A DNA stretch of 64,000 nucleotides from Manis javanica. Taxonomy: Eukaryota > Chordata > Mammalia > Pholidota > Manidae. Within the stretch, counting starts at the first letter, position 1, and each line of letters opens with the position of its first letter. Both the position numbers and the translations under genes were made by a program. Location of the stretch: assembly GCF_040802235.1 (NCBI RefSeq), contig NC_133165.1, positions 44,591,629-44,655,628 on the forward strand. Reading direction: 5' to 3'. A model generated the notes under the pieces. It was not told the DNA's origin and searched no databases. It was given only the letters and a program-made list of their open reading frames with translations. This document shows positions 2,991 to 60,046 of this stretch, one piece after another.

Positions 2991-3136
2991 ACAGTATTGA
3001 ATGGATGTGGCCCTGTATGTTTTGACACATGGACCAGTGATGGCTGGCCCTTCTAGCACCTTGGGGAAAAGGCCTGGAAGCTGGCCTCATCTGTATTGCT
3101 GGAGTAACAGCAGAGTGGCCCCCAAAGATCACAGTA

Positions 3137-7995: not shown

Positions 7996-7999
7996 CTTC

Positions 8000-9220
8000 T
8001 TTAAAATTTTTTTGAAGCATAATTGATATACAATATTATATTGATGTCAAGTATACAGCATAGTGATTTGACAGTTATATACATTATTAAATGTTCATCC
8101 CAACTAGTGTAGTTACTGTCAACATAGAAAGATGTTATAGAACTATTGACTATATTCTCTTTGCTGTGCCTTCAACTCCATCACAAATTTGTATTATGAT
8201 TGAGATTTTGTGCCTCTTTATGTCCTTCACCTATGTCACCCACCAACCCTAACCCCTTGGTAACCACCAGTCATTTCTCAGTGTCTATGAGTCTTTTGCT
8301 GTTTTGTTCATTTTGTTTTAGTTGTTTTTAGATTCTACATATAAGTGAAATCATATGGTATTTGTCTTTCTCCACCTGGCTTATTTCACTCAGCGTAATA
8401 CCCTCTCAGTCTATCCATCTTCTCACAAATAATAGAATTTCTTTCGTTTTTTACATCTAAGTAATATTCCATTGTGTATCTGTACCACTTCTTCTTTATC
8501 TATTCATCTATTGATGGACACTGTGATTGCTTCCATACCTTCGAATCAGGGATTTTGTTTTCTTTCAATACATTACTAGAAGTGGAATTACTGGGTCATA
8601 TGGAATTTCTATTTTCTGTTTTTTAAGGAAACTCCATACTGCTTATCATAGAGGCTACACTAATTTACATTCCCATCAACAATGCATGACAGTTCCCTTT
8701 TCTCAGCACATCCACACCAATATTTGTTATATTGTGTCTTTTTTATACTGGCCATTATAACTGGTATGAGGTGATATCTCATGGTGGTTTTGATTTGCAT
8801 TTCTCTGGTGATTAATGATGTTGAGAATCTTTTCATGTGTCTGTTAGCCATCTGTATGTCTTTTTAGAAAAATGTCTGTCCAGGTCTTCTGCCCATTTTT
8901 TCATCAGATTACTTGGGGTTTTTCTTTTCTTTTGTTCTTGCTGTTGCTCTCTGTGTTTTTTATAGGTTTTGGATACTAGTCCCATGTTATATATGTTATT
9001 TGCAAATATATTCTCTCATTCAACAGGGTGTCTTCTTGTTTTGTTGATGCAAAAGCTTTTCAAATTAAGGTAGTACCACTTATTTTTGCTTTTATTTCAC
9101 TTGCCTGGAGTGACATCTGGAAAAAAAAATTCTAATGCAACTGTTCAAGAGATACTTCCCTATATTTTTTCCTAGGAGTTTTATGATTTGGGGACTTACA
9201 TTAAGGTTGTTAAATCGAGA
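8000..9220 (-). mobile_element. L1 3' half (ORF2 C-terminus and 3' UTR)
   Basis: The L1 3' end starts near 8000 and reads leftward out of ORF2. The ORF2 C-terminal zinc-knuckle region lies at 8660-8851. Its sequence is clearly diverged from the 3' end of the L1 at 32961-33874, although the 5' part joined to it at 9221 is nearly identical to that element. The junction skips part of ORF2. Confidence 0.8.
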
Positions 9221-12200
9221 TTTTACTTAATCCAGTCATTAGTTCTAATAGTTTTTGGTGGAGCCTTTAGGGTTTTCTGTGTATATAACATTATGCCATC
9301 TGAAAACAGTGACAGTTTTACTTCTTCCTTGCCAGTTTGGATGCCATTTATCTCTTCATCTTGCCTGGTTGCCATGGCTAGGACTTCCAGTACTATGTTG
9401 AATAAAAGTGAAGTGAATGGGCATCATTGTCTTTTTCCTGGTCTTAGAGGAAAAGCTTTCAGCTTTTTGCCATTGAGAATGATGTTAGCTCTAGGTTTGT
9501 CATATATGGCCTTTATTATGCTGAGGTACATTCCCTCTATACCCATTTTGTTGAGAGTTTTTATCGTAAGTGGATGTTGAATTTTGTCAAGTGCCTTTTC
9601 AGCAGCTATTGAGATGATCATGTGGTTTTTATCCTTCCTTTGGTTAATGTGGTGTGTCACATTGATTGACTAATGAGTATTATTGCCATCCTTCCGTCCC
9701 TGGAATAAATCCCATGTGGTTGTGATGGATGGTCCTTTTGATGTATTTTTGAATTCAGTTGCTAATTCTTGAGGATTTTTGCATTTATATTCATCAGGTA
9801 TATTGGTCCATAATTTTCTTTTTTGTAGTGTGTTTGGTTTTGGTATCAGAGTGATGCTCGCCTCACAGAATGAGTTTGGAAGTATTCCCTCTTCTTCTAC
9901 ATTTTGGAATACTTCAACTACATTTTGGAATAGCTCCTCTTAAATGTTTGGTAAAATTAGCTATGAAGCCATCCAGTTCCGGCTTTTGTTTGTTGGAGTT
10001 TTTGATTACCAATTCGATTTTGTTACTGGTAATTGGTCTGTTCAGGTTTTCTGTTTCTTCCTGGGTCAGTGTTGGAAGCTTGTACTTTTCTAGGAATTTT
10101 TCCATTTCTTCTAGGTTGCCCAATTTATTGGCATATAATTTTTCATTGAATTCTCTAATAATTCTTTGTATTTCTGTGGTGTCAGGCCTGATTATTCCTT
10201 TTTTGTTTCTGATTTTGTTTATTGTGCCCTCTAGCTTTTTATTTGCTTAGATGAGTCTGCCTGGGGGTCTGATGTTTTGTTTATCTTCTCAAAGAACCAG
10301 CTCTTGGTTTTGTTATTTTTTTTATTGTTTTTCTCTCTATTTAATTACTTCTGCTATGATCTTATTATGTCTCTCCTTCTATTAACCTTGGGTTTCATTT
10401 GTTCTTCTTTTTGTAGTTTCTTTAGTTGTGAGTTTAGGCTGTTTATTTGAGATTGTTCTTGTTTCTTGAGTTAGGCCTGTACTGATGTGTTCTCAGTGGT
10501 TCCCTCTTAGAACTTCCTTTGTGGCATCCTACAAAATTTGAACTGTTGTGTTTTTGTTTTAATTTGTCTCCACATATTGTTTGGTTTCTACTTTGATTTG
10601 TTCATTGATTCATTGATTATTTAGAAGCATGTTGTTTAGCTTCCATGTGTTTGGGGTTCCTTTGTTATCTTCATGTGCTTTATTTCTGGTTTCATTCCAT
10701 TGCGGTGTAAGAAGTTGCTTAATACAATTTCAGTCTTTTTGAAATTATGGGGCTCTCTTTGTGGCCTAGGATGTGACCTATTCTGGCAAACATTCCCTGT
10801 GCACTTGAGAAAAATGTGTATCCTGCTGCTTTTGGGTGGAACATTCTGTATATATCTGTTAAGTCCATCTGGTCTAATGTGTCATTCAGTGCCTCTGGTT
10901 CCTTATTTTCTGTCTAGATGATCTGTCCATTGGTGTAAGTGGTGTATTAAGCTTTCCTAAATATGATTGAGCTGCTGCCTATTTCTCCCTTAGTTCTGTT
11001 ACTATCTGTTTTACATATCTAGGTGCTCCCAAGTTGGGTGCATAGATATTTATAATTGTTATATTATCCTCTTGTTGGACTGATTCCTTTATCATTATGT
11101 CATGTCCTCCTTTGTCTCTTGTTACTTTCTTTGTTTTGAAGTCTGTTTTGTCTGCTATAAGTACTGCTACTCCTGCTTATTTCTCCCTATTATTTGCATG
11201 AAGTATCTTTTTCTATCCATTCATTTTCAGTCTGTGTCTGTCGTTGGGTCTGAAATGAGTCTCTTCTAGGCAGCATATAGATGGATCTCCTTGATCAGTT
11301 CTGCTACCCTGTGTCTTTTGATTGGTACATTCAATCCATTTACATGTAAGGTAGTTATTGATAGATGTATACTTATTGCCAATTTATTTTCAGTTTTCTG
11401 GTTGTTTTTGTAGTTCTTCTCTATTCCTTTCTTCCTCTCTTATACTCTTGTGCTTTGATGGTTCTCTTTAGTATTGTGATTGGATTGCTTTTTCTTAATT
11501 TTTGTGTATCTATTATAGCTTTAGGTTTGTGGTTACTATAAGGTTCATGAATAGTTTCCTGGATATAGAGTAGTCTATATTATCTTGATGGTCACTCTAT
11601 TTCAAACACAATCTGAAAGTATGTTTTTTCTTCTTCTTCTTCTTTCTCCACACTTTATGTATTAGATGTCATAATCTGAATTTTTTTGTGTATCCCTTGA
11701 CTGATTTGGTGTATAGTTGTTTTACTATTTTTGTTTAATTTCATACTTGCTTGGTATGTAATTGGTCTACTACCTTTACTGTGTGTTTACTTTCACTGGT
11801 GAAATCTATTTAGGCTTAAGAACAGTTCCATCTGCAGAAGTTCCGTTAACATATCCTGTAAGGCTGGCTTAGTGGTGGTGAATTCCTTTAACTTTCATTT
11901 ATCTGGGAAACTTTTAATCTCACCTTTAATTCTGAAATGATATCCTTGTTGAGGAGAGGATTCCTGGTTGAAAATCCTTTTGTTTCAATACATTAAGTAT
12001 TTCATGCCACTCCCTTCTGGTCTGTAAAGTTTCTGCTGAGAAGTCTGCTGAGACCTCGATGGAGTTTCCCTTAAAAGTAATTTTTTTACCTCTTTCGAGC
12101 TGCTTTCAACACCCTCTCTTTATCCTTAATCTTTGTCATTTTAATTGTTAGGCCTTCGTGTTGTCTTCCTTGGGTTCCTTTTGTTAGGGGCTTTCTGTAC

Positions 12201-14003
12201 TTCCAGGATCTGGGTGTCTATGTCCCTCCCCAGGTTGGGGAAGTTTTCAGCAACTATTTCTTCAAAGGGACTTTCTACTCCTTTGTCTCTCTCTTCTCCT
12301 TCTGGGACCCTATTATGCAAAATATTTTTTCATTTGGAGCTGTTATATAGCTCTCTTAACATCCTCTTGTTTCTAGAGATTCTTTTTTCTCTCTGTTCCT
12401 CGGCTGCATTGTTTTCCTATTTTCTGATTTCCATCTCTTTGTCTCCTCTACTTACAGCAATCTATTAATCATTCCCTCCATTGTATTTTTCATTTCAGTT
12501 AACTGTATTATTCAGTTCTGAGTGGCCCTTTTTCAACTCTACTGTCTCTTGTTGAAGTCCTCCCTGAGATCATCAACACTTTTCTGAAGATCAGTGAGCA
12601 TATTTATGACTGTTACTTTGAAATCTTTATCAAGAAGATTGGTGATCTCTGTTTCATTTAGCCCTCTTTCTGGTGTCTTACCCTGTACTTTTGTTTGGAA
12701 CATGTTCCTCTGCCTCCTTTGTCTGTGTTTCTGTGTTTCTTTGTATTAGATACATCTGTTATGCTCCTGAATTAGAGAGCAATGGCTTTATGAAGAAGGT
12801 GTCCCGTGGGGCCCAGAAGCTCGATTCTTTACTCACCAGTGCCTGGTTCTCCTTTGAGGTGGAGCTCTACTTGCTGTTGGTGGGCTATGGGTGGAGCTGC
12901 CTTTCTGCTGTCAGCAGTGGCTGATCTCTGTCAGCAGAGGCCCTTTGTGAGCCAAGCAGTGGCACTAGTGCTAGGATCATTGTGGGTGGGGCCTGCCCTT
13001 TACCTGCCCTGTAGCTATGGAGGTGCTGCTGGGCTGTCTGGGTAGGATGGGCAGGTGTGCAGTAGAGCATGGCATGGGGCTGGACCACCAGCAAGGAGGA
13101 CTGAGCATTTGGAGTTGGCTCCCTCTGCCTGAAAAGGCAGCAAAGTCTGACTGCTGCTTCACCAAGGGTGCTGGATGGACTGGTGGGTGTGCAGGGAAGC
13201 ATCTCAGGACTGAGCCACCAGCAAGGAGGATGGAGCATCTGGGGCTTCCACAAGCACCTGACCAGTTGGGGTGAGGGAGGGCTGGGGAAGCTTGGTCCAC
13301 CTGCCCTTTCTCCTCCAGAGAGAGCTCTATCTAATGCTCGTCTCTCTGGCATCCTTCCCACTGCTGATAAATCTTTCAAACTGCCACCTCTGTGGTGGGT
13401 CTCAGTGGGATCACCTGAGCATGCCTGTCCTCCACAAGCAGCTGGAGTCTCAGCCTCTCAGAGTGCTGTGACTTTCCCTGGCATCCAGTCCCATTAACCA
13501 CCAAAGCCTAGTGCAATGTGGACTCGTGTTCCCAGAGCAGATCTCCAGGGCCAGGTGTGGAGAGTTCCTGAGCACTTATCCGCTTCCCACTCTGTTCCTC
13601 TCCCTCCTACTCATCAGCTGATATGGGGAAAGGGCTTGGGTCCCGATCGATCACAGCTCTGACACTTCACCCTTCTCTGTGAGGTCTTCTCTTCTCCCCC
13701 AGGTGTAGATGGCCTGTTTAGCCATCTTCAGGTCATCTTCAGGGTTAGTTGTATTTGCTTTAGGTGCTTCCTTGGTGTGTGGAGGGGAGGGGTTTCTGTC
13801 TTGCCGTCTTTTCCGCCATCCCTGGCATAGTTTTTCTTATAAAGGGCAGGAGAGTAAATATTTCAGTTTTGTGGGCCATACAGTGTCTGTCACATCTGCT
13901 CAACTCTGCGTTCACGAAGTGAAAGCAGCCATTGACTATATGTATACAAATGAGCATGGCTGTGTTCCAATGCAACTTTATTTATAAAAATTGGTGGTGG
14001 GCT
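9221..14003 (-). repeat. Left arm of 4.78-kb inverted repeat (L1 5' part plus MER5A part)
   Basis: Near-perfect reverse complement of 25067-29849. Matching positions x and 39,070-x hold from 9424 to 13987 with no net indel. One substitution is visible near 13914 and one small difference near 9377. It contains L1 ORF2 (RT near 9424-9660), L1 5' region and MER5A (13823-14003). Identity stops at 9221 inside ORF2 and at 14003, exactly where an L1 is inserted. Confidence 0.93.
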
Positions 14004-16575
14004 GATGAACATCAATGCAAAAATACTCAACAAAATATTAGCAAACCAAATTCAAAAGTACATCAAGATGATCATGTACCATGACCAAGTGGGATTCATC
14101 TCAGGGATGCAAGGATGTTACAACTTTCAAAAATCCTTCCACATCATCCACCACATCAACAAAAGAAGGACAAGAAGCACATGATCATTTCCATAGACGC
14201 TGAGAAAGCATTCAAAAAAATTCAGCATCCATTCATAATAAAAACTCTCAACAAAATGGGTAGAGAGGGCAAATACCTCAACATAATAAAGGCCATATAT
14301 GATAAACCCACAGCTAACATCATATTGAACAGCGAGAAGCTGAAGGCTTTTTCTCTAAGATCAGGAACAAGACAGGGATGCCCACTCTCCCCCACTGTTA
14401 ACATAGTACTGGAGGTCCTAGCCACGGCAATCAGACAAAACAAAGAAATGCAAGGAATCCAGATTGGTAAAGAAGAAGTCAAACTCTCACTCTTTGCAGA
14501 TGACATGATATTGTACATAAAAAACCCTAAAGAGTTCACTCCAAAACTACTAGAACTAATATGTGAATTCAGCAAAGTTGCAGGATACAAAATTAATACA
14601 CAGAAGTCTGCTGCTTGCCTATACACTGATGATGAACTAGCAGAAAGAGAAATCAGGAAAACAATTCCATTCACAATTGCATCAAAAAAAATATAATACC
14701 TAGGAATAAACCTAACCAAGGAAGTGAAAGACCTATACCCTGAAAACTATGAAACAATCTTAAGGGAAATTAAAGAGGACACTAGCAAATGGAAACTCAT
14801 CCCATGCTCTTGGCTAGAAAGAATTAATGTTGTCAAAATGGCCATCCTGCCTAAAGCAATCTGCAGATTCAATGCAATCCCTATCAAAATACCAACAGCA
14901 TTCTTCAATGAACTGAACAAATATTTCTAAAATTCATATGGAACCACCAAAGACCCCAAATAGCCAAAGCAACCCTGAGAAGGAAGAATAAAGTGTTGAT
15001 ATTGCTTCCCTACTTCAAGCTGTACTACAAAGCCACACAGTAATCAAGGCAATTTGGTACTGGCACAAGAACAGAGCCACAGACCAGTGGAACAGAATAG
15101 ACTCCAAATATTAACCCAAACATATATGGTCATTTAATATACGATAAAGGAGTCATGGACATACAATGGGGAAATGATAACCTCTTCAACAGTTGCTGTT
15201 GGCAAAACTGGACAGCTACATGGAAGAGAAGGAAACTGGATTATTGTCTAATCCCATACACAAAAGTAAATTTGAAATGGATCAAACACCTGAATGTAAG
15301 TCATGAAACCATAAAACTCTTAGAAAAAAACATAGGCAAAATCTCTTGGACATAAACATGAGCAACTTCTTCATGAACATATCTCCCCAGGCAAGGGAAA
15401 CAGAAGCAAAAATGAACAAGTGGGACTATATCAAGCTGAAAAGCTTCTGTACAGCAAAGGACACCACTAATAGAACAAAAAGGCATCCTACAGTATGGGA
15501 GAATATATTCATAAATGACAGATCTGATAAAGGGTTGACATACAAAATATATAAAGAGCTCACACACCTCAACAAACAAAAAGCAAATAATCCAATTAAA
15601 GAATGGGCACAGGATCTGAACAGACACTTCTCCAAAGAAGAAATTCAGATGGCCAACAGACACCTGAAAAGATGCTCCACATTGCTAATCATCAGAGAAA
15701 TGCAAATTAAAACCACAATGAGATATTACCTCACACCAGTAAGGATCACTGCTACCCAAAAGACAAACAACAACAAATGTTGGCGAGGTTGTGGAGAAAG
15801 GGGAACCCTCCTACACTGCTGGTGGGAATGTAAATTAGTTCAACTATTGTGGAAAGCAGTATGAAGGTTCCTCAGAAAGCTCAAAATAGAAATACCATTT
15901 GAGCCAGGAATTCCACTCCTAGGAATTTACCCTAAGAATGCAGCAGCCCAGTTTGAAAAAGACATATGTTTATTGCAGCACTATTTACAATAGCCAAGAA
16001 ATGGAAGCAACCTAAATGTCCATCAGTAGATGAATGGATAAAGAAGAGGTAGTACATATACACAATGGAATATTACTCAGCCATAAGAAAAAAACAGATC
16101 CTGCCATTCACAACAACATGGATGGAGCTAGAAGGTATTATGCTCAGTGAAATAAGCCAGGCAGAGTACCAAATGATTTCACTCATATGTGGAGTAAAAG
16201 AACAAAGCAAAAACTGAAAGAACAAAACAGCAGCAGACTCACAGAACCCAAGAATGGACTAACAGTTACCAAAGGGAAAGGGACTGGGGAGGATGGATGG
16301 GAAGGGAGGCATAAGGGCAGGGAAAAAGAAAAAGGGCATTACGATTAGCATGTATAGTGCATGGGGGACACAGGGAGGGCTGTGCAACACAGAGAAGACA
16401 AGTAGTGAGTTCACAGCATCTTACTATGCTTATGGACAGTGACTGTAATGGGGTTTGTGAGGAGGTCTTGGTGATGGTGAGAGTCTAGTAAACATAATGT
16501 TCTTTTTGTAATTTTAGATTAATGATTTAAAAAATTGGTGGTGGGCTATAATTTGGACATCATTGTTCTAGAATA
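13823..16575 (+). mobile_element. MER5A (hAT-Charlie) remnant split by an L1
   Basis: 13823-14003 and 16548-16575 together read as MER5A: GGGCCATACAGTGTCTGTC, TGCTCAACTCTGC and TGCAACTTTATTTATAAAAA are landmarks. The pieces are separated by the plus-strand L1 at 14004-16527, flanked by the duplicated AAAAATTGGTGGTGGGCT. Confidence 0.75.
14004..16527 (+). mobile_element. 5'-truncated L1 with target-site duplication
   Basis: Starts inside ORF2 RT. An open frame at 14115-14696 includes the RT box FADDMI. The ORF2 C-terminus is at 15346-15864, then the 3' UTR. Direct repeats AAAAATTGGTGGTGGGCT flank it at 13986-14003 and 16530-16547. It is absent from the corresponding point of the right arm. 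Confidence 0.88.
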
Positions 16576-18318
16576 CAGAACTAGGACCACAGGGAGTCAA
16601 AGAGAAACAGATTTTTAACAAAAATTTTTTTATGAATAATGTTAAAGATGTGCAAAAGTGGAGAGTCATTTTGCTGTCTTCTCTATATTTAATGATAAAA
16701 TTAATTTTAGATGGGAAAATAATATGTTGCAGTTTTTCTAAGATGTCTGAAACATTATTATACTTTGTTTGAAAGTTGCACAAAAGGTTTGACAGCTCTG
16801 TGCCATTATTTGACAAAGTTTCTTTATGGACAACAGCCTAGGAACAAATAGCTGAACCCAAAAAATCCAATTTTCTGATGGCATCATATTTTCTATATAT
16901 CTTAGATTTTTCAATATATCTTAGTTTTTTTGACTCACAATCACTTATCCCAGCCTTTACAACTCTATCCTAAATGCACACTATAACCATATTCAATATT
17001 GATTTAGATGACATTATTCTAAATTGCAACAATTATTTTATTATTTTAATCACAACTTTCATAATTTTTCAATTTTTTTTGAACCATTCATCTATTTTTT
17101 AAATTTAGGAATATAATACAACAAAATAGCAAACCCAGAAATGCAAATATAATATAACCAATAACACACAAAGGGAAATTATATGAAAACAGCACCTGTT
17201 GCCTGCATGTTAGACAGGCGCCCACTGCAGTCTCTGGAGTTCATGGACAACCTTAAAGAACACAATAACTAAAGATACAGCAGGATTCTGTGAAAGTCAC
17301 AAGTTTAAAATGTGTGAGATATACAGGTTTAAAATAGTTTCTTGCTATTTTTCTTTTTCACTAAAACTTAGCACTTAGGAGACCACCAGTGGTTCGTGAA
17401 ACACATTTTGAGAAACAATGTTCTAAAGCAGATTCTTACAAAGTCTAATCTGAAGCCTTCCTTGAGTCTATTGAACAATCATTGGTCTTTCTGGAGACCA
17501 AAGCTTCAAAATTCAAAGGAATTTTGGACTTTGTGGTGGTGGATAGGGGAGATAATTAGGGGCAAAGATGAAGAGTCAATTTCCAGTTTCCCGTCAGATC
17601 ACATGATCAACTGCCTCCCCCTTCTTCTTAATTAAATCATCCACATGGCTTGAGCACTTTGGAGGTGGCAACAGCAGTGAGATCACTAAAGGGAAGGGAA
17701 TGGCCTGCTATGTGTTGACTCTCAGCTCAATGCCAGGTACCACTTTCCGCTTTATGCTGAGATGGATGGCAAAATAATAATGACCTTACTGGGTGCGTAT
17801 GGAGGCAGCAGAACCCTGATATGGGACTTCAAACTGCTCTCCAATCACTAACTATATGCAAATAATGGCCCCTTCAACACCTCCCAAGATTTCTAAGAAA
17901 ATCTGTGTATTGGTTTACCCAGCTTGGCAAGCAGCTATTGAGGGCTGTCCTTCTTCTTGTCCCCATATAGCCCCATCAGCTTCTTATTAGTGAAAGCCTT
18001 GAGAATAAAATTTTAATATGTTAAGAGGTCATTTTATCCCCACTATAGGGATGTTCATAACCTCCATTCTGTTTAACCACCTTGTCCTGGCCTCGGGCCT
18101 GGTCAAGATCCACGATGGTTAGGGGACACCAGAGGTGCCATTTCCAAGACTCATGTCCACAAAAGGCTTTAATTTTAGATTTTTGACATATTTCCCAGTA
18201 AAGGTATATACATCTTTTTGTACTAATTTGTTAATGCAAACTTTTAAAATACACAGTATAACCATGTAAGGCATTTTTCCATTCACTGTATTTGGAATCT
18301 CAAAAATAAAAGTGGAGG
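16576..18318. other. Downstream flank of ITGAX, no gene recognised
   Basis: The first part (to about 16660) is similar to 24960-25040 in reverse complement. The rest is AT-rich with no coding signal. ATTAAA candidates on the minus strand lie at 18168-18173 and 18012-18017 and could end the ITGAX transcript, but this is not shown. Confidence 0.4.
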
Positions 18319-18319
18319 A

Positions 18320-18480
18320 AGGCAGTATAGCACAGAGAAGACAAGTAGTGACTCTGTAGCATCTTACTACACTGATGGACAGTGAGTGTAATAGGGTATG
18401 TTGGGGGGACTTGGTGAAGGAGGGGTTCTAATAACCACAATGTTGCTCATGTAATTGTATATTAATGATACCAAAAAAAA
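18320..18480 (+). mobile_element. Very short L1 3'-end insertion
   Basis: Matches the L1 3' UTR at about 16380-16530 (GCACAGAGAAGACAAGTAGTGA, then GATGGACAGTGA and ATTAATGATA) and ends in an A-run. It lies about 1 kb beyond the ITGAX stop, antisense to the gene. Confidence 0.75.
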
Positions 18481-19438
18481 GACACAAAGCAGAAATTCTA
18501 GGATCTGTGACAGTCTCTAAGAAACTCTTGGGTTTGAAAACACAATGAAGCAACTTCTATCAACAACAAGCAAATAATGGACGTTAAAATGATATCAGTA
18601 TTAGATAAACACATACATATATGCATGCACACACATACATATATATGTAGAAATACATTTTAAAATAAGAACAAGTGTTTTTAGAAAACTATATTGTATC
18701 TTGTCATTTAAACATAGCCTAAATAAACTGAAAGTTGTATCTTTAAAAAAGAAAGTGGCCTGAGCCTCTTGGTCTCTGAAAGACCCTGGAGCTTGTTGAG
18801 TCCAACTGGCACTGGAGTTCCACTCCTCTTTCCCAGCCAGCAATGCTAATCAATGGTAGTAAGCTAAGTTTACAATTCCAGTGTAAGATATTCCCAATTC
18901 TCTTTGGGATATTTGGACTAAAATCCTCAATATAAAGTTAAGAGCTGATATTGACAGTATTTTACTAGAAATGAGGATGATAGGGAGGCATAGAGCAACT
19001 CATGACATGTGCATTGAGGCCCACCTTTGGAAGTGGAACTGGATTCCAGACATCAAGTTGGAGAGTTCAGATGTTATTCTGTAACAAGCTGGATGAATAC
19101 TGTGTTTTAGAAAGATCATTGGTGGCTAGTAAAGGAAGGGAAATTGGAGCTTGAGGCTTTTGCCCATGTATTTCTAGGTAGAAATTCCAAGTGAAGGCAA
19201 CCAGAAGGCATGGCAGGAATCCTGTCATGGGGTTTCCAGATGGAGCCTTAACATGACAAATGGCCTTTCCCAGGCAAGGTTCTTCGTACAAACACGCTGT
19301 ATTTCCTCAAAGGGAGAACGCAGCCTGATCCTAGCCCCATCATGTGGAATATGTATGTCAGGATCTCAGGAAAAAGGTCAGGAGGGTCAGGAAACTTCTC
19401 AGAAGAAAGAAGGTCCAAAGAAGAACAAAAGGTAGTTC
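18481..19438 (-). other. ITGAX 3' UTR and immediate downstream
   Basis: Directly follows the TAA. There is no AATAAA on the minus strand in this stretch. A CA/TA-rich tract lies at 18605-18650. Confidence 0.5.
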
Positions 19439-19537
19439 TTATTGGGAAACTTGGGGGTCTGATGTCCCATTTTCTGGGACAGTCTGTCCATTTGCTTCCT
19501 CCATCATTTCCTTGTACTGACGTTTGAAGAAACCAAC
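19439..19537 (-). CDS. ITGAX: ITGAX exon 30: cytoplasmic tail and stop
   Basis: A 99-bp terminal coding exon of 32 codons plus TAA. It opens with VGFFKR, the membrane-proximal clasp that holds integrins inactive, and continues [12 protein letters not shown], which separates CD11c from CD11b and CD11d. The last residues (DPQVSQ) differ from the human tail end. The acceptor is CCCTACAG at 19538-19545. Confidence 0.95.
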   Translation of the reverse strand, partial: VGFFKRQYKEMMEEANGQTVPENGTSDPQVSQ

Positions 19538-22500
19538 CTGTAGGGCAGGAAGGAGAAAAAAATCAGGAAGTCCTGCAGAAGACAGGAAAAGAGATGACTG
19601 GACGAGGGGCAAGGATCACCATTTCTGGAACCCCTACTATGTTCAAGCACTATCTTAGGAACTTATCCACAATATGTCATTTAGATTTTACCATAATTCT
19701 GTGGGATGGGTATAATGAGAAACCAAAACCCAGTGTGGACCAAGCACTTGCCTACAATCACAGAAAAAAAATCACTGGTGGTGTCAGCATCCAATCCAGG
19801 GCTCTGCTTTTATGTTATAATTTGCTATATGTTATAATTTCAAGGAAAATGTAGAAAGGCAGAAAAAAGTGGAAAAGAAAGGAGGACAGAGTAGAAGAGG
19901 TTTGAGAATAAGATAGGAAGGCACAAACATGGGAGACAGTTGGGGAGTAGTGATGTCATAGGTGAGAGGGGATCTCTCACATGCAGTGACTTAGCAAGAA
20001 TGTTTACCTGTCTCCAAGGTGACCTCTTTCTTACACTGTAGAAAAAGTAGGATCAATGCTGGTGATGCCAAGAGCAGGATGAGAACACTCACCTTGTACA
20101 GGATGGCTGTGATGAGAGCCAGCAACAGCAGTCCTCCCACAGAGCTGCCCACAATAACAGGAACAGGGTTGTAGACCTCATACTTCTCCAGCACTATCTC
20201 CATCTAGAGTGGAGATGACCCCATCAGAAAGCATCTGGCCTCTTGTTGTATCTTCCCAAATGCCCAACCTTTAACTACAGGCCTTATTTGAAGGGATGAG
20301 AGATACAGAAGATACTCACAGGCTTTTAGGGACAACTGTCCTACCCAGAGACCTACATTCCTCCTCCCTCAAGACTTACAAGCCCCCCACCCAGCATCAC
20401 AGTTTTAGTACCAGGAACCCTGTGGCCAGCCTGGCCACTGCCTACTACACAGTCACTACCTTGGTTCTCAAAAATGTCTCCTGTCCTGGAAGCTGGGAAA
20501 ACTCAGATTTGTTGAATGTGATTTCAGCTTCACTCATGACCAATATCTTCTTCTTCAATGTCTGCAAAAGAAAGGGTGAGAGCTGGGGAACCAGCTCTGG
20601 GAAAGGCTCAGAATTCAAGAAATATCCTGGCTTGAGGATGGGCTCAGACACATCAGGTATGATCTGAATCCAGGGGAGGGACTCAGCTGTTAGGTCTACA
20701 CACCTGGCTGACCCAGCTGAAGCTGAGATTGCCCTTCAGGATGAAGTCAATTTCCTCCTGGATACCAAAGGAGGGGATGTCACAGCGGAACCTCAGGCAG
20801 TCAGCAATAGAGCAGTCCTAGGGACAGAGAAGTAGTAGCATCAGGCCAGAGAAAGACGGGTTTGAAGGTAGAAGACAGAATTGAACAGTCTGATATGAGG
20901 GGAGAAGACACATCTGAATTCAAGAGGACTGTTCAGCAGATGACCATCAGAATGTTAAAACGGATTCCTGAACTAAATTCCTCTAATATGTGCCTTAAAG
21001 TGGGAGAGAGGCCAGAGCCCTTCTCACCAGCACAGGATTCTTCTGAAAGTGAGTCAGGAAGTTGGTCTCTGTGGGTGATATTTTCCCTGAAGAGCACTGA
21101 ATTGATGGGTTCTAGGAAAAAACAGAGAGCAAGCATCTCAGGGGAACCATCAAAGATTCAAGAGAGACCCAGGGAATCCACGTAAAGGGCATTACACTGT
21201 ACTTGCATACCTGGGGGTGAAAGACCTCTATCTCCTTCCACACAGCCACCTGGTTCAGCTCCACAGGCACTGAGAAGTAGATGCTGACAGGCAGGACCCT
21301 CTGTCCCAGGTTGTTCACCTGTACACAGGGCAGTGAAAGCAAAGACCACACAAAACCCCACATCCCTCATCCCAATCTCTGGTTCCTGGGCCCTGCCATC
21401 CCCAGCCCATGCTCTTGAGTCCCCATCATTTGCCTGGTATCTATGCTGGGCCATGCTGCTTTCTTCTCCCTCTGAGTCTGAGAAGTTGAGGTACCTGGTG
21501 GATTGTTCATGGCTGGGGAGAAAAGAGGCATGGGTAGATTTGAAATTCCACAGGGGCCTCTTGAGAAGGCTCTGGCTGGAAGCATGACAGAATAAGTGGT
21601 CAGTGGGGACTCGGGGTGGCCTGGAATGAGATATGTAGCTAACTTGGGGTAATAAGAGGATTTAGAGAGCAGGGCTGGGCATCAAGCTGGATGTAAGGTA
21701 TTTATAGAAGCTGCCCACAGAGGAAACTTCCAAGAATGCTGGACTGGAGACTGAGAGCTCTGCCGCTGACTCTTTGGGTGAGCAGGGGCCAGGGCCTGTC
21801 CCTCTCTGTGCCTCAGTTTTCCTTTCAAGCCTTCATGGGCACGGAGGATGCTGGATGGGCACATAGGACAGGCAAAGGTTTGGGGAGACTCAGGCTGTTG
21901 CTGAATGTCTACTGGACACGGCTGCTGTCTGACTTCTCACAGGCCTTTCCTTGTGCCATTCCCTTCTATGTCCTTGGTTTTTCTGGGCCTAGGGCTTTGA
22001 AGTGAAGGAGGGTCCAACAGCAGACTCTTCACTGGGTCTCAGTGTAACAAGGCCTCCTGAGGCCTGCCTAGGCCTATACCTGGACACCCAGTGGCCAGCC
22101 TTCCCCTCCCTGCTCCACTCCATGTGTACCTGTCCTTTGCCTGCACAATCCAAATTCTAGAACACCACTTCTACTCTGAAGTCTTATCCCTCCTCTGCAA
22201 GAGGCTCCACCAAAATGCCCAACCTCATCCTGGGGTCTGCTCTGAGTACCCCCACCCAAAGAGTCACATTTGATTAGCACAGCTCCGTGGGGGACCACAA
22301 ATGCGTAGATATGGTATGCCCTGGCCATTGGTTCTCTGTAAGGAGGAGTGACACCAGTGAACACTCCGGCAAGAGAGCTTAGAGCATGTACCTGACCAGC
22401 CTGCTGGGAGCACCCAAGGGGCAGGTATGAAGGAGAGTGTGAAACTCTGGGCATGAAGAAGACATCCAATGAAGCAAGTAGGTGAAACTGGCAGGGGAAT

Positions 22501-25500
22501 GTACCCAAGCTAAGCCTCACAGGCCCGCCATACATCACGAGTTCACATACCCAGCAGACACAAGGGTTTTGATTAGACATAATAGAGGCTCAATTAACCT
22601 TTGAGTATCAAGTGAATTTATGGAAAGCATCCACAGTTAGGTGTCTGGAACAAAACAAATGCTAGGAAGATATTTGTTGAAAGAAAATATCTACTCAAAC
22701 ACTTGACTTAACTGAATTTCAAACACCTCCTCTGTTCCTCCATAGCAGCATTTTAAGGCCTTTTCCTTTTTTCCAGTATTTCTGACACCCAGCCTCTGCA
22801 GCAAACAGGTCCCTATACTACAGGACTTATCCTTCCCAAAGGGGACTAGGAAAAGGAGAAGTGGTTCTACAAGCCCTGTAGAGGTAGTGGTTCTAAGAGT
22901 AAGGTGTAAATCTGTTCCTTACAAAGAACAGCTGTCTCACCCAAAGGCTAAAGGCCCTTTGAGAATCACTGTTGGACTTTATACATTTAGCTGATGAGCT
23001 TATACATTTTAGCTTGACAGAAGGCCCTAGTCACTTTCAGAAATTCACATAGCCTCAGGGTACAGAACCACAGAAAGGCCCTTGATGAGATTCTGCCTTG
23101 GATTGGGGTAACCTCCCTCCCCAGTAAGGCTGTAAGACCATTAAGACAGACATATCTCAGTATTTCTTAGGGAACCCAGGAGAATCTTGGTGCTTTTGAG
23201 AAAGCCTTCTGAGAACTGTAACCTTTATTAAATGTATGATGTAATGGTAATAATATCACAATTGTTACCTCAGCTAGCCCAAAATAAACATTCAATGATG
23301 GATTAGTAAGTGCTGCTAACAATATCATCTACCAATTGAAAGATAGGTGATAAAACCTAAATTGCCCAGTTGTTCAGCTGCTACAAGGAGTGAAACCCTT
23401 TTGAGGTTGTGGTGTAGCACCTGCTGATCACAGTGTAGACAGCATACTTCACCGGGAGCTCTAGTTGGAAGGTAGTCTTGCTGGTCCTGGGAGTGTTATT
23501 CTCACTGGGGAAAGAGGAAGAGCCCAGTTGGAGGAGGCTGGGGGCATAGAGATGTTGCCCCCAGTCTGGTCCAGCTCACCTGCTCACATTGGCCATCAGA
23601 TGCAGCCGGTCTCCCAGATTAGCCTTTGAAGAGACATCAAAGGTGGCTGTAAAGATGATCTGAGAAAGAGGAAGGGATCAGAGAGATCACTGAGGAGTGA
23701 GTCAGGTTGGGGACAGGGCATAGGGGGTGGGCAGAAGCAAGGCTGACCTGATCACCCTGGTGGAAAATGAGGTAGTTGATGCTACAGCAGGTGCTCAGTG
23801 TGCCCTGGTCTCTGGCTGGGGCACCGTCACAGGTCAGACGTGGGGAGCGAGCCTGCAGCTGATTCTAGGCAAAGGTAGGTAAAAAAAAAAAAAAGGCAGG
23901 TAGGAAATTATTAGTGTTCCAAAGAGATTCCATCAAATAGTGACAGTTTTCTGCAATCTACCTTAAGGTTATGTTTTTTTGAAATCCTTAGATATTATCT
24001 AGTCAAATTCTTCCTAATATGGAAACAAGATTCATAAGAATTTCCCCCTTTTTTATTTATTACTCTTTTTAAAAGGCTTTATATTATGGAAATTATTATG
24101 CAAATTTTCAAACATACTCAAAAGTAGACAGACTAGATAAATCAACAACCGTGTACCCATAACTCAGCTTAAATTACTGACATTTTTCTACTGTTGTTTC
24201 ATTCAGCTATTCTCGACTTTTTTTTCTCAATAACTTAAGCTCATTCTGAACATCATATCATTTCATTCCAAAATACTTCAGTGTATACTACCCAGAGATA
24301 AGGGCACTTTTTAACATAACCAAAAGACTCAAGAAATTACACCCAACAAAATTAACATTAACTCTTTAATATTAGCTAATATCCAAGTCATGTTCAATAT
24401 TCCTAGATTGTCTCCTAAAATGTAATTTTACACCTCATTTTTTAAAAATCAATATCCAACAAAGGTCTACATATTGCATTTGATTTGGTTAAGGTGTCTA
24501 GCAGTACTTTCAGTGACAGGGCACTCACCCCTCATGCAGCTGGAGCTTGCCATTCCTAGCCCATTCCTTCTGCTCCCATTTGGAACAGTAATAACCTAAC
24601 AGACACAGGAGACCAACCATCCAAATGCCATGTGTGGACCTAGTTTAGATACTGGTTCAAATAAACCAAGTATAAAAAGATATTTTTGAAGCAAGTAAGG
24701 AAATTTGATTACGGTTTAAATACCAAGAATTCATACATTTCTTTGGGTGTGAGAAATAATAACACTGCAGTCATAAAAGAAGCCCTCACCGTCTAGAACT
24801 ATAGAGTAAAACAGGGAGGAACACAATAACATTAAGTTACACATTTAAAATACTTCAGCTAAAGGAAAAAAAAACAGATGAAATGAATGTGGTGAAATGT
24901 TGATAATTGTTAAACATGGGTGATAAATATTGGGGAACTTTATTGAACTACTTTATTTTTGCAAATGTTTAACATTTTTCATAATAAAATTTTTGTTAAA
25001 AATATGTTTCTCTTTGACTCCCTGTGCTCCTAGTTTTGTCTTCTACAACAAGGATGTCCAAATGAGAGCCCACCACCAATTTTTATAAATAAAGTTGCAT
25101 TGGAACACAGCCATGCTCATTTGTATACATATAGTCAATGGCTGCTTTCACTTCGTGAAAGCAGAGTTGAGCAGATGTGACAGACACTGTATGGCCCACA
25201 AAACTGAAATATTTACTCTCCTGCCCTTTATAAGAAAAACTATGCCAGGGATGGCGGAAAAGACGGCAAGACAGAAACCCCTCCCCTCCACACACCAAGG
25301 AAGCACCTAAAGCAAATACAACTAACCCTGAAGATGACCTGAAGATGGCTAAACAGGCCATCTACACCTGGGGGAGAAGAGAAGACCTCACAGAGAAGGG
25401 TGAAGTGTCAGAGCTGTGATCGATCGGGACCCAAGCCCTTTCCCCATATCAGCTGATGAGTAGGAGGGAGAGGAACAGAGTGGGAAGCGGATAAGTGCTC

Positions 25501-28500
25501 AGGAACTCTCCACACCTGGCCCTGGAGATCTGCTCTGGGAACACGAGTCCACATTGCACTAGGCTTTGGTGGTTAATGGGACTGGATGCCAGGGAAAGTC
25601 ACAGCACTCTGAGAGGCTGAGACTCCAGCTGCTTGTGGAGGACAGGCATGCTCAGGTGATCCCACTGAGACCCACCACAGAGGTGGCAGTTTGAAAGATT
25701 TATCAGCAGTGGGAAGGATGCCAGAGAGACGAGCATTAGATAGAGCTCTCTCTGGAGGAGAAAGGGCAGGTGGACCAAGCTTCCCCAGCCCTCCCTCACC
25801 CCAACTGGTCAGGTGCTTGTGGAAGCCCCAGATGCTCCATCCTCCTTGCTGGTGGCTCAGTCCTGAGATGCTTCCCTGCACACCCACCAGTCCATCCAGC
25901 ACCCTTGGTGAAGCAGCAGTCAGACTTTGCTGCCTTTTCAGGCAGAGGGAGCCAACTCCAAATGCTCAGTCCTCCTTGCTGGTGGTCCAGCCCCATGCCA
26001 TGCTCTACTGCACACCTGCCCATCCTACCCAGACAGCCCAGCAGCACCTCCATAGCTACAGGGCAGGTAAAGGGCAGGCCCCACCCACAATGATCCTAGC
26101 ACTAGTGCCACTGCTTGGCTCACAAAGGGCCTCTGCTGACAGAGATCAGCCACTGCTGACAGCAGAAAGGCAGCTCCACCCATAGCCCACCAACAGCAAG
26201 TAGAGCTCCACCTCAAAGGAGAACCAGGCACTGGTGAGTAAAGAATCGAGCTTCTGGGCCCCACGGGACACCTTCTTCATAAAGCCATTGCTCTCTAATT
26301 CAGGAGCATAACAGATGTATCTAATACAAAGAAACACAGAAACACAGACAAAGGAGGCAGAGGAACATGTTCCAAACAAAAGTACAGGGTAAGACACCAG
26401 AAAGAGGGCTAAATGAAACAGAGATCACCAATCTTCTTGATAAAGATTTCAAAGTAACAGTCATAAATATGCTCACTGATCTTCAGAAAAGTGTTGATGA
26501 TCTCAGGGAGGACTTCAACAAGAGACAGTAGAGTTGAAAAAGGGCCACTCAGAACTGAATAATACAGTTAACTGAAATGAAAAATACAATGGAGGGAATG
26601 ATTAATAGATTGCTGTAAGTAGAGGAGACAAAGAGATGGAAATCAGAAAATAGGAAAACAATGCAGCCGAGGAACAGAGAGAAAAAAGAATCTCTAGAAA
26701 CAAGAGGATGTTAAGAGAGCTATATAACAGCTCCAAATGAAAAAATATTTTGCATAATAGGGTCCCAGAAGGAGAAGAGAGAGACAAAGGAGTAGAAAGT
26801 CCCTTTGAAGAAATAGTTGCTGAAAACTTCCCCAACCTGGGGAGGGACATAGACACCCAGATCCTGGAAGTACAGAAAGCCCCTAACAAAAGGAACCCAA
26901 GGAAGACAACACGAAGGCCTAACAATTAAAATGACAAAGATTAAGGATAAAGAGAGGGTGTTGAAAGCAGCTCGAAAGAGGTAAAAAAATTACTTTTAAG
27001 GGAAACTCCATCGAGGTCTCAGCAGACTTCTCAGCAGAAACTTTACAGACCAGAAGGGAGTGGCATGAAATACTTAATGTATTGAAACAAAAGGATTTTC
27101 AACCAGGAATCCTCTCCTCAACAAGGATATCATTTCAGAATTAAAGGTGAGATTAAAAGTTTCCCAGATAAATGAAAGTTAAAGGAATTCACCACCACTA
27201 AGCCAGCCTTACAGGATATGTTAACGGAACTTCTGCAGATGGAACTGTTCTTAAGCCTAAATAGATTTCACCAGTGAAAGTAAACACACAGTAAAGGTAG
27301 TAGACCAATTACATACCAAGCAAGTATGAAATTAAACAAAAATAGTAAAACAACTATACACCAAATCAGTCAAGGGATACACAAAAAAATTCAGATTATG
27401 ACATCTAATACATAAAGTGTGGAGAAAGAAGAAGAAGAAGAAAAAACATACTTTCAGATTGTGTTTGAAATAGAGTGACCATCAAGATAATATAGACTAC
27501 TCTATATCCAGGAAACTATTCATGAACCTTATAGTAACCACAAACCTAAAGCTATAATAGATACACAAAAATTAAGAAAAAGCAATCCAATCACAATACT
27601 AAAGAGAACCATCAAAGCACAAGAGTATAAGAGAGGAAGAAAGGAATAGAGAAGAACTACAAAAACAACCAGAAAACTGAAAATAAATTGGCAATAAGTA
27701 TACATCTATCAATAACTACCTTACATGTAAATGGATTGAATGTACCAATCAAAAGACACAGGGTAGCAGAACTGATCAAGGAGATCCATCTATATGCTGC
27801 CTAGAAGAGACTCATTTCAGACCCAACGACAGACACAGACTGAAAATGAATGGATAGAAAAAGATACTTCATGCAAATAATAGGGAGAAATAAGCAGGAG
27901 TAGCAGTACTTATAGCAGACAAAACAGACTTCAAAACAAAGAAAGTAACAAGAGACAAAGGAGGACATGACATAATGATAAAGGAATCAGTCCAACAAGA
28001 GGATAATATAACAATTATAAATATCTATGCACCCAACTTGGGAGCACCTAGATATGTAAAACAGATAGTAACAGAACTAAGGGAGAAATAGGCAGCAGCT
28101 CAATCATATTTAGGAAAGCTTAATACACCACTTACACCAATGGACAGATCATCTAGACAGAAAATAAGGAACCAGAGGCACTGAATGACACATTAGACCA
28201 GATGGACTTAACAGATATATACAGAATGTTCCACCCAAAAGCAGCAGGATACACATTTTTCTCAAGTGCACAGGGAATGTTTGCCAGAATAGGTCACATC
28301 CTAGGCCACAAAGAGAGCCCCATAATTTCAAAAAGACTGAAATTGTATTAAGCAACTTCTTACACCGCAATGGAATGAAACCAGAAATAAAGCACATGAA
28401 GATAACAAAGGAACCCCAAACACATGGAAGCTAAACAACATGCTTCTAAATAATCAATGAATCAATGAACAAATCAAAGTAGAAACCAAACAATATGTGG

Positions 28501-31500
28501 AGACAAATTAAAACAAAAACACAACAGTTCAAATTTTGTAGGATGCCACAAAGGAAGTTCTAAGAGGGAACCACTGAGAACACATCAGTACAGGCCTAAC
28601 TCAAGAAACAAGAACAATCTCAAATAAACAGCCTAAACTCACAACTAAAGAAACTACAAAAAGAAGAACAAATGAAACCCAAGGTTAATAGAAGGAGAGA
28701 CATAATAAGATCATAGCAGAAGTAATTAAATAGAGAGAAAAACAATAAAAAAAATAACAAAACCAAGAGCTGGTTCTTTGAGAAGATAAACAAAACATCA
28801 GACCCCCAGGCAGACTCATCTAAGCAAATAAAAAGCTAGAGGGCACAATAAACAAAATCAGAAACAAAAAAGGAATAATCAGGCCTGACACCACAGAAAT
28901 ACAAAGAATTATTAGAGAATTCAATGAAAAATTATATGCCAATAAATTGGGCAACCTAGAAGAAATGGAAAAATTCCTAGAAAAGTACAAGCTTCCAACA
29001 CTGACCCAGGAAGAAACAGAAAACCTGAACAGACCAATTACCAGTAACAAAATCGAATTGGTAATCAAAAACTCCAACAAACAAAAGCCGGAACTGGATG
29101 GCTTCATAGCTAATTTTACCAAACATTTAAGAGGAGCTATTCCAAAATGTAGTTGAAGTATTCCAAAATGTAGAAGAAGAGGGAATACTTCCAAACTCAT
29201 TCTGTGAGGCGAGCATCACTCTGATACCAAAACCAAACACACTACAAAAAAGAAAATTATGGACCAATATACCTGATGAATATAAATGCAAAAATCCTCA
29301 AGAATTAGCAACTGAATTCAAAAATACATCAAAAGGACCATCCATCACAACCACATGGGATTTATTCCAGGGACGGAAGGATGGCAATAATACTCATTAG
29401 TCAATCAATGTGACACACCACATTAACCAAAGGAAGGATAAAAACCACATGATCATCTCAATAGCTGCTGAAAAGGCACTTGACAAAATTCAACATCCAC
29501 TTACGATAAAAACTCTCAACAAAATGGGTATAGAGGGAATGTACCTCAGCATAATAAAGGCCATATATGACAAACCTAGAGCTAACATCATTCTCAATGG
29601 CAAAAAGCTGAAAGCTTTTCCTCTAAGACCAGGAAAAAGACAATGATGCCCATTCACTTCACTTTTATTCAACATAGTACTGGAAGTCCTAGCCATGGCA
29701 ATCAGCAAGATGAAGAGATAAATGGCATCCAAACTGGCAAGGAAGAAGTAAAACTGTCACTGTTTTCAGATGGCATAATGTTATATACACAGAAAACCCT
29801 AAAGGCTCCACCAAAAACTATTAGAACTAATGACTGGATTCAGTAAAAAGCCAGGATACAAATCAATATACAGAAATCTGTTGCATTCCTATATACTAAC
29901 AATGAATAGCTAAAAGGAGAATCACTAAACAATTCTATTTACAATTTCATCAAGAAAGAATAATATACCTAGGAATAAACAAAACCATGGAGGTGAAATA
30001 CCTGTACTCTGAAAACTATAAGACATTGGTAAAAGAAATTGAGGATGACACAAATAATGGAAAGCTATTTCATGGTCATAAGTGGAAGGATTAATATTGT
30101 TTAAATTGTCATATGACCAAAAACAACTTATGGATTCAATGCAATCCCTTTCAAAATACCAAAAGCATTTTTCACTGAACTAGAGCAAATGATCCTAAAA
30201 TTCATATGGAACAACAAAGTCCTCAAATAGCCAAAGCAATCTTGAGAAAGAGCAAAGCTGGGCATATTACACTCCCTGACTTTATGTTATATATACTAGA
30301 TAGCTATAATAACCAAAACAGTATGGTGTTGGCATAAAAACAGACCCATAGATCATTGGAACAGAATAGTCAGAAATAAGGCTAGGCATATATGGCCAAT
30401 TAATATGCTATAAGGGAGCAATGAATATACAATTAGTTAAAAGTCAATCTCTTCAATAAACGGTATTGAGAAAATTGGACAGCTACATGCAAGAGAATGA
30501 AGTTGGATTATACTGTCTAACTCTACATAAAAGTGAACTTGGAATGGATTAAAGACCTAAATATAAGACATGAAATGATTAAACTTCTTTTTTATTTTGG
30601 TATCATTAATGTACAATTACATGAACAACATTATGGTTACTAGACTCCCCCATTATCAAGTCCCCACCACACACCCCATTACAGTCTCTATCAGTGTAGT
30701 AAGATGCTGTAGAATCACTACTTGTCTTCACTGTGTTATACTGCCTTCCCCATGCCCCCACTATATTATGTGTGTTAATTGTAATGCCCCCTTTCCCCCC
30801 ATATCCCTCCCTTCCCACCCATCCTCCCCAGTCCCTTTCCCTTTGGTAACTGTTAGTCCATTCTTGGGTTCTGTGAGTCTATTGCTGTTTTGTTCCTTCA
30901 GCTTTTGCTTTGTTCTTATAATTCACAGATGAGTGAAATTATTTGATACTTGTCTTTCTCCAGCTGGCTTATTTCACTGAGCATAATACCCTCTAGCTCC
31001 ATCCATGTTGTTACAAATGGTAGGATTTGTTTTCTTCTTATGGCTGAGTAATATTCCACTGTGTATATGTACCACCTCTTCTTTATCTTCTCATCTACTG
31101 ATGGACACTCAGGTTGCTTCCATTTCTTGGCTATTGTAAACAGTGCTGTGATAAACATAGGGGTGCATATGTCTTTTTCAAACTGGGCTGCTTCATTCTT
31201 AGGGTAAATTCCTAGGAGTGGAATTCCTGGCTCAAATGGTATTTCTATTTTGAGTTTCTTGAGGAACCTCCGTACTGCTTTCCACAATGGTTGAACTAAT
31301 TTACATTACCACCAGCAGTGTAGGAGGGTTCCCCTTTCTCCACAACCTCGCCAACATTTGTTGTTGTTTGTCTTTTGGGTAACAGTGACCCTTACTGGTG
31401 TGAGATGATATCTCATTGTGGTTTTAATTTGCATTTCTCTGATGATTAGCAATGTGGAGCATCTTTTCAGGTGTCTGTTGGCCGTCTGAATTTCTTCTTT

Positions 31501-34500
31501 AGAGAAGTGTCTGTTCAGATCCTGTGCCCATTTTTTAATTGGATTATTTGCTTTTTGTTTGTTGAGGTGTGTGAGCTCTTTATATATTTTGGATGTAAAC
31601 CCTTTATCAGATCTGTCATTTATGAATATATTCTCCCATACTGTAGGAAGCCTTTTTGCTCTATTGATGGTGTCCTTTGCTGTACAGAGCTTTTCAGCTT
31701 GATATAGTCTTGCTTGTTCATTTTTACTTTTGTTTCCCTTGCTGTACAGAGCTTTTCAGCTTGATATAGTCCTGCTTGTTCATTTTTACTTTTGTTTCCC
31801 TTGCCCAGGAAGATATGTTCATGAAGAAGTTACTCATGCTTATGTCCAAGAGATTTTTGCCTATGTTTTTTTCTAAGAGTTTTATGGTTTCATGACTTAC
31901 ATTCAGGTGTTTGATCCATTTCTAATTTACTTTTGTGTATGGGGTAAAACAATGACCCAGTTTCATTCTCTTCCATGTTGCTGTCCAGTTTTGCCAATAC
32001 CAGCTGTTGAAGAGGCTGTCATTTCCCCATTGTATATCCATGGCTCCTTTATTGTATATTAACTGACCACATATGCTTGGGTTAATATTTGTAGTCTCTA
32101 TTCTGTTCCACTTGTCTGTGGGTCTGTTCTTGTGCCATTACCCAATTGTCTTGATTACTGTGGCTTTGTAGTACAGCTTGAAGTTGAGAAGCGAGATGCC
32201 CCCTGCTTTATTCTTCCTTCTCAGGATTGCTTTGGCTATTTGGGGTCTTTGGTGATTCCATATGAATTTTAGAACTATTTCTTCCAGTTCATTGAAGAAT
32301 GTTGTTGGTATTTTGATAGGCATTGCACTGAATCTGCAGACTGCTTTAGGCAGGGTGGCTATTTTGACAATACTAATTCTTCCTAACCAAGAGCATGGGA
32401 TGAATTTCCCTTTGTTAGTGTCCTCTTTAATTTATCTTAATAGTGTCTTGTAGTTTTCAGGGTATAAGTCTTTCACTTCCTGGATTAGGTTTATTCCTAG
32501 GTATTTTATTCTTTCTGATGCAATCGTGAATGGAATTGTTTTCCTGATTTCTGTTTCTGCTAGTTCATCATTAGTGTATAGGAAAGCAACTGATTTCTGT
32601 TTATTAATTTTGTATCCTGCAAGTTTGCTGAATTCACATATTAGTTCTAGTAGTTTTGGAGTGAAGTCTTTAGGGTTTTTTATGTACAGTATCATGTCAT
32701 CATGTCATCCGCAAATAGTGACAGTTTGACTTCTTCCTTACCAATCCGGATGCCTTTTATTTCTTTCTTTTGTCTGATTGCCATGGCTAGGACCTTCAGA
32801 ACTACGTTGAATAAAAGTGGGGAGTGAGGGCATCCCTGTCTTGTTCCCAATCTTAGGTGAAAAACTTTCAGCTTCTCATTGTTAAGTATGATGTTGGCTG
32901 TGGGTTTGTCATATATGGCCTTTATTATGTTGAGGTACTTGCACTCAAAACTATTAAACTTTTAGAAGACAACGTAAGCAAAAATCTCTTGAACATAAGC
33001 GTGAGCAATTGTTTCTGGACACCTGTCCACAGGCAAGGGAAACAAAATGAAAAATGAAAAAGTGGGACTACATTAAACTAAAATCTTCTGTACAGCAAAG
33101 AACACCATGAACAGAACAAAAAGACACCCTACACTGTGGGAGAATATATTTGTAAATGATTTATCCAATAAGGGATTAAAATCCAAAATATATAAAGAAC
33201 TCATAAGAATCAACACCAGAAAATGAGTAGGCTAATTTAAAAATGGACAGAGGACCTAAAATGACATTTTTCCAAAGAAATACAGGTGACCAACATGCAA
33301 ATGAAAAGATGCTCCACATCACTAATTACCAGGGAGATGCAAATCAGAACTACAATGATATATTACCTCACACCAGTTAGAACGGCCACTATCAGAAAGA
33401 GAAGAAATAAAAAGTTGGTGAAGATGTGGAGAAAAGGGAAGCCTCCTACAGTGTTGGTACAACAACATGGATGCATCTAGAGGGTATTATGCTGAGTGAC
33501 ATAAGCCAGGTGGAGACAGACAGATACCATATGATTTCACTTATATGTGGAATCTAAAAACAAAACAGACTCATAGACACCCAGAAGTGACTCATGGTTA
33601 CCATGGGAGAGGGGTTGGAGTAGGTAGGTGGGTGGGGCAGATAAAGGGCCAAAAAGTTTCTCAATCATAATATAAGTTGGTCCCAGGGATAGAAGTTCAG
33701 CATAGAGACTATACCCCCAATGGTTCTGTAATGTTGACACATATAACTGTGTTAGTTGGGTAAGGATTTAATAATATGGGTAACTGTTGAACCAGTTTAT
33801 TATAAACTGAAACCAATATAGCATTGTATATCAACTATAATTCACTAAAAAAGGAAAGAGAGGAATTTAAAAAAAAGAAAAACTATGCCAAGCCCTGATC
33901 CAGAGCCACCAATAAAGTGAACTCCTTCTTCTACAGAACAGTGTTTTAAAATATTTTTGAAGGGAGGTGTATTTTCTTTTGAAAGATATTGATATGATGT
34001 GGAACACTAAGAAATTGAAAGCAGAGTCCCCTGTCTCTCCACATTAGCAGTCCTGTGGGAACTCATTCCTGATAGTCAGTGTCCTTGAAATGTGATACCC
34101 AAATTTGAACACAGCATTAGCCAAGGCAAGTCCCAGACAACACTAACACATCCATCCAACCATGATCAGGCCCAGACCTCTTGGCATACAAGAAGCTGCT
34201 AAGCAGTAATGGTCTGAGCTTTAAACCCAGCACAGGAGTATCTACAGATCTACAGCTGTCAGACGCTTCCTTACCCCAAAGGAATAATACCTGGCTCCCT
34301 GCCACACGTCGGTAAGACAACCCCGGTGGGTAGAAGAAGGTGACTGTGGTTCCATAGGAGTCCTCACCATCATTACGCACTGTCACATTCATGTCCAGCT
34401 CCAGATTACTCCCCACCACTAGGGTCTTCAAGCTAGGAGTTGGATTAGAGGATAGGAGATGATTCTGTGACCAGGGCTAGCAATGGTCTGGGAATGAAGC

Positions 34501-49472: not shown

Positions 49473-49522
49473 CACTGCTAGTGAACACTTTGGTGGAGGG
49501 AGGAAAGTGGAGGTATAAAGGC

Positions 49523-60040: not shown

Positions 60041-60046
60041 CGAATC

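Follow-up and report, generated by a model that had tools for sequence, protein, structure and literature searches.

The stretch of the Manis javanica genome considered here (contig NC_133165.1, positions 44,591,629 to 44,655,628 of the forward strand; 64,000 nucleotides, hereafter the window) carries ITGAX, the gene of integrin alpha-X, on its minus strand, and an inverted repeat of about 4.78 kb, one arm of which lies in an intron of the gene and the other beyond the end of the gene. The structure is of a known kind, is real in this assembly and contains an informative internal clock. It is probably an old inverted segmental duplication in which recent gene conversion has rendered the two copies identical. 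All results for the locus refer to one sequence of one assembly (2.56 Gb in 63 contigs).

Comparison of the minus strand, with stops written as X, to solved structures located ITGAX from mature residue 1 through the cytoplasmic tail. This structure-based reading gave no separate position for the signal-peptide exon or for residues ~911-1000 (it also counted a second integrin stretch). The gene is laid out as follows.

34291..44351, minus strand: upstream ITGAX exons, mature residues 1-817
23865..34290, minus strand: ITGAX intron holding the right arm, 10,426 bp, from splice-site reading
19439..23864, minus strand: downstream ITGAX exons in the spacer between the arms, from mature residue ~818 through the cytoplasmic tail, with the stop codon at 19441-19439

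A GT donor follows the exon for residues 769-817 at 34291, and an AG acceptor precedes the following exon, which starts at 23864, so that the right arm and the L1 transposon to which it belongs are situated within the intron, while the left arm sits 5.4 kb past the stop codon. This agrees with a preliminary description of the stretch, made from its letters without database searches, which had located the repeat around the 3' third of ITGAX. All 23 placed matches follow one another in order on the minus strand, and a flipped spacer was rejected on this ground. In the cytoplasmic tail (19537-19439) the conserved GFFKR part is followed by a terminal SDPQVSQ, an ending that we take to differ from that of the human tail.

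Self-BLAST of the window aligned 9221-14003 with 29848-25067 as a minus-strand match of 4,783 columns at 99.916% identity, with three mismatches and one gap. The resulting arms, and the interval between them, are listed below.

9221..14003, minus strand (sense strand of its L1): left arm, comprising the 5' part of an old L1 and its 5' flank; 99.92% identical to the reverse complement of 25067-29848
14004..25066: spacer between the arms, 11,063 bp
25067..29848, plus strand: right arm, the left-arm segment in opposite orientation, belonging to a long L1 that measures ~6.3 kb once its insert is subtracted
9369..13909: difference-free interior of the left arm against the right, 4,541 bp, representing the minimal homogenised tract

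The self-comparison and the arm alignment bear out the near-perfect inverted repeat of the preliminary description, with the end of the right arm corrected by one base from 29849 to 29848. The substitutions are T at 9228 against G at 29841, G at 9368 against A at 29702, and G at 13910 against T at 25160 (left and right arm, respectively), and the base at 9364 is absent from the right arm. Coordinate pairs consequently sum to 39,070 inside this 1-base indel and to 39,069 outside it. The landmark sums of 39,070 noticed earlier hold inside the indel; the statement that there is no net indel does not stand, and it arose because the landmarks begin at 9424, inside the indel. The surroundings were searched for comparable pairs with 28-base words in 264 contiguous kb, consisting of the window and the 200 kb to its left and containing no N. 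Among the 19 pairs of at least 500 bp and at least 90% identity found there, the arms form the only one at 99% or above, followed by pairs at 98.1% (a gene tract discussed below) and 96.0%. Scans for tRNA genes and Rfam families at the gathering threshold gave no matches.

Aligned with the younger L1s, the right arm in its outer 0.6 kb, together with the sequence that continues it, shows ~76% identity, in keeping with the L1 nature ascribed to the arms in the preliminary description. The GC-rich 5' part of the arms is taken to be L1 from its dispersed copies and from the general character of such elements. The ends of the two copies are marked by the following features.

25232..25246, plus strand: AAGAAAAACTATGCC, target-site duplication flanking the right L1 on its 5' side
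33875..33889, plus strand: partner of that duplication on the 3' side of the right L1, with up to two mismatches allowed
13824..13838, minus strand: copy of the 5' target-site duplication carried by the left arm, lacking a 3' partner
30590..32946, minus strand: younger L1 inside the right L1 but outside the arm and in opposite orientation; bounds approximate, with an ORF2 match
7847..9220, minus strand: 3' part of a different, older L1, joined to the left arm
9221..9228: outer junction; TTTTACT (9221-9227) is compatible with the arm as well as with the old neighbouring L1, and T at 9228 fits the old L1

The right L1 starts after the copy of AAGAAAAACTATGCC at 25232 and ends before the matching 15 bases at 33875, and its own length is 6,271 bp when the younger insert, which matches the L1 ORF2 protein, is excluded. 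We also note a 62-bp tandem duplication with 97% matches (31673-31804) inside this insert. On the left side of the window no 3' partner of the AAGAAAAACTATGCC duplication was found with up to two mismatches allowed. The sequence at 7847-9220 matches the 3' part of the right L1 at 69 and 70% in the two longest matches and at 78% in a 100-bp match, and this old neighbouring L1 is traceable to about 9228 at the outer junction. TTTTACT at 9221-9227 is read as a 7-bp microhomology of that junction, and the T at 9228 may belong outside the arm.

Since both arms consist mostly of L1 sequence, two independent, alike L1 insertions were considered as their origin. This explanation was rejected as scarcely credible: the 5' flank and the 5' target-site duplication are common to both arms, and a 3' partner exists on the right only. 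A 1.2-kb probe from the arm further matched at 100% in two places, both of them the arms, and at no more than 82% elsewhere among the 40 places scored of 9,463 candidates. Because the right L1 has both target-site duplications, while the left has only the 5' one and is adjoined by a different L1, the right copy is most simply taken as the original and the left as the copy, which would set the direction of copying from right to left.

The inner end of the left arm coincides exactly with the point at which another L1 entered, and the sequence beyond this element provides the evidence on which the age of the duplication turns.

14004..16529, plus strand: younger 5'-truncated L1 splitting the left copy, with an 18-bp target-site duplication; 88.6-88.7% identical to the L1 at 30602-32946
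13986..14003, plus strand: first copy of the 18-bp target-site duplication AAAAATTGGTGGTGGGCT
16530..16547, plus strand: second copy of AAAAATTGGTGGTGGGCT
16548..16657, plus strand: left copy of the duplication remnant past the young L1, with a BLAST core (16551-16657) that is 90.7% identical to 25063-24957
24957..25066, minus strand: remnant of the duplication, right copy

The two copies of AAAAATTGGTGGTGGGCT match perfectly. The homology of the inverted copies extends past the arms, beyond the young L1, which the preliminary description overlooked. The core of the remnant spans 107 bp and differs at 10 of 107 positions (12 of 110 when the first three bases are included), and the remnant keeps its order beside the arm. 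The reverse-complementary copies thus hold more than a single transposon, namely L1, its 5' flank and ~110 bp, and constitute an inverted segmental duplication. Farther inward (16656-17500 against 24100-24960) no homology above shuffled sequence was found, the best local score being 19.8 against a mean of 18.8 and a maximum of 26.3 in 60 shuffles. No third copy of the ~110-bp remnant was found in the 264 kb.

The arms and the remnant differ strongly in divergence (3 of 4,783 against 10 of 107; Fisher P 4e-15). Identity is much higher inside the tract (0 of 4,541 positions differing) than in the flanking remnant, short as the latter is, as expected of copies evened out by gene conversion. If 1 to 4.5e-9 substitutions per site per year are assumed, the 0.08% divergence of the arms corresponds to ~0.1-0.4 million years and that of the remnant to ~11-50 million years. 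The two younger L1s differ by 11.3%, or ~14-61 million years, which serves only as an upper guide because the divergence of their sources is included. One recent inverted duplication, in which the left locus received a templated copy of the right no more than a few hundred thousand years ago and no conversion took place, would explain the low divergence of the arms, the microhomology at the outer junction, and the 5' target-site duplication copied without its partner. It does not fit a remnant ~9% diverged and without a third copy in the 264 kb, an arm end at the entry point of the young L1, or the location of the difference sites near the arm ends. As a 9% diverged continuation and an arm that ends just where an old insertion sits make a single recent duplication insufficient, we consider it unlikely. 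A mixed version, in which a recent copy invaded at a pre-existing older pair, may also be envisaged. The preliminary description had named recent copying or gene conversion as the cause of the identity; this is supported, and the 90.7% continuation over 107 bp favours conversion acting on an older inverted duplication.

None of the three difference sites is more than 146 bp from an arm end (P 2e-4 under a uniform distribution of sites), and two remain when 9228 is counted as part of the junction (P 3e-3). Differences near the ends and none inside are also what a collapse with edge-anchored reads leaves, and an assembly artefact, which the preliminary description had named in the form of a symmetric error as the other possibility, has to be weighed here: the arms would in truth differ, or one would be absent, and the assembler or polisher would have written one consensus, leaving true differences near the unique edges. 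The 9364-9368 edge speaks against such an artefact. The base at 9364, missing from the right arm, is kept in 11 of 11 other L1 copies, and at the position of 9368, where the left arm has G, all 11 carry A (twelve copies were listed, the weakest of which, at -4275, was left out). Since the other copies oppose each change, both arms bear private changes at this edge; the interior has none. The genome is moreover contiguous, at the contig number given above and with no N in the 264 kb, nine nearby pairs of 4-7 kb at 91-96% identity were resolved separately, and arms of 4.8 kb around an 11-kb gene-bearing spacer are unlike a fold-back read. We therefore regard an artefact as improbable.

The preferred explanation, an old inverted duplication with later gene conversion, can be laid out in three steps. 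Initially, ~4.9 kb of the ITGAX intron, comprising single-copy-looking sequence, the 5' flank of the L1 and the 5' part of that old L1, would have been copied, with its orientation reversed, to a position downstream of ITGAX, the copy ending at the 7-bp microhomology in another L1. The younger L1 would then have entered the left copy and isolated a piece of ~110 bp on the inner side; the insertion itself is established by its target-site duplication, and its place in the order is deduced. In the last step, suggested by the pattern of differences, the uninterrupted 4.78-kb block would have gone on pairing with its partner and been overwritten, as far as the young L1 in one direction and to near the breakpoint of the duplication in the other. 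Conversion would have missed the piece left isolated, which retained its ~9% divergence.

Several points weigh against this explanation. An assembly error writing one arm into both would look much alike. The remnant is only ~110 bp long and its copy number is known from the 264 kb alone, the clustering at the ends involves just two or three sites and its P values were calculated post hoc, and the missing 3' target-site duplication on the left could reflect later loss. The edge is less diverged than the remnant (3 of 242 positions, P 6e-4; without 9228, 2 of 234, P 2e-4), so that one old duplication followed by one conversion is too simple, and this suggests more than one round of conversion. 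The length of the tract is a further difficulty. Mammalian conversion tracts outside a human Y palindrome are reported to measure tens of bases to 1 kb (PMC3723533), and another source gives a few hundred bases as usual and more than 1 kb as rare, with suggested events reaching 22 or 53 kb (PMC3961182). Given such short usual tracts, 4.5 kb demands a long tract or repeated events. On the supporting side, the conversion tracts inferred for human Y palindrome P6 have a mean minimal length of 2,068 bp and a maximum above 9 kb (PMC3723533).

Conversion at the locus is backed independently by ITGAX itself. The segment 39016-40106, which includes exons and introns, is 98.1% identical over 1,091 columns to a tract in direct orientation in a downstream paralog, ~65 kb to the left of the window, whereas the other matches between ITGAX and the exons of the paralog, at -75 to -55 kb, are at 66-84%. 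In a global alignment, 100-column windows around the segment drop to 35-56 matches. This contrast makes interlocus conversion between ITGAX and the paralog the most likely origin of the tract. The I-domain exon of the paralog resembles, as we presume, that of ITGAD, and none of the papers searched joins ITGAX, ITGAD and gene conversion.

Elsewhere in the window, two inverted provirus-like copies at 49475-53927 and 55894-60954 are ~92% identical to each other, and further copies of the element at 90-96% are present in the 200 kb to the left of the window. We take them to be a provirus from their open frames, several of which are broken. Open frames of 189 and 165 amino acids are situated at 2456-3538, and the former looks, in our estimation, integrase-like.

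The arrangement of one intragenic and one extragenic arm, inverted and near-identical, is the layout of the F8 Inv22 type. Its nearest analogue is the pair int22h-1/int22h-3 behind the intron 22 inversion of haemophilia A, likewise described as one intronic arm with an inverted partner outside the gene and ~99.9% similarity; the 9.5-kb int22h repeats are 99.9% similar over more than 8 kb and invert by homologous recombination (PMC3211038). As at F8, a crossover between the ITGAX arms would detach the terminal exons. Unlike int22h, the ITGAX arms are 4.8 rather than 9.5 kb long, enclose an 11-kb spacer and consist mostly of transposon sequence, and the locus is known here from one sequence, which is non-inverted. 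We further assume ITGAX to be autosomal, unlike F8.

The identity of the arms also recalls palindrome P6, where arm identity above 99.9% is ascribed to conversion and multi-kb tracts are inferred (PMC3723533). P6 is larger and belongs to the Y chromosome, whereas the pair described here is small and surrounds exons of a gene for a leukocyte integrin. The ITGAX locus further has in common with human inversions between inverted repeats that high-identity inverted repeats surround an interval, and 11 of 16 analysable inversions carry signs of recurrence (PMC3961182); unlike these, the ITGAX locus is known in a single orientation. By their titles, the publications joining ITGAX, inversion and segmental duplication concern human inversion supergenes and lupus.

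The unconverted remnant left by the young L1 allows the duplication and the last homogenisation to be dated separately at one locus. As a prediction only, a crossover between the arms should be able to invert the 11-kb spacer and separate the last ITGAX exons from the rest, and provided that the arms are real, their layout leads one to expect recurrent inversions breaking ITGAX, a leukocyte integrin gene. It is a tentative and rather doubtful extension that the locus is actively flipping and overwriting, with repeated conversion and crossover and with inverted ITGAX alleles, in which the transmembrane and tail exons are turned, segregating in the species. If true, an immune gene would here have its own natural equivalent of the haemophilia inversion.

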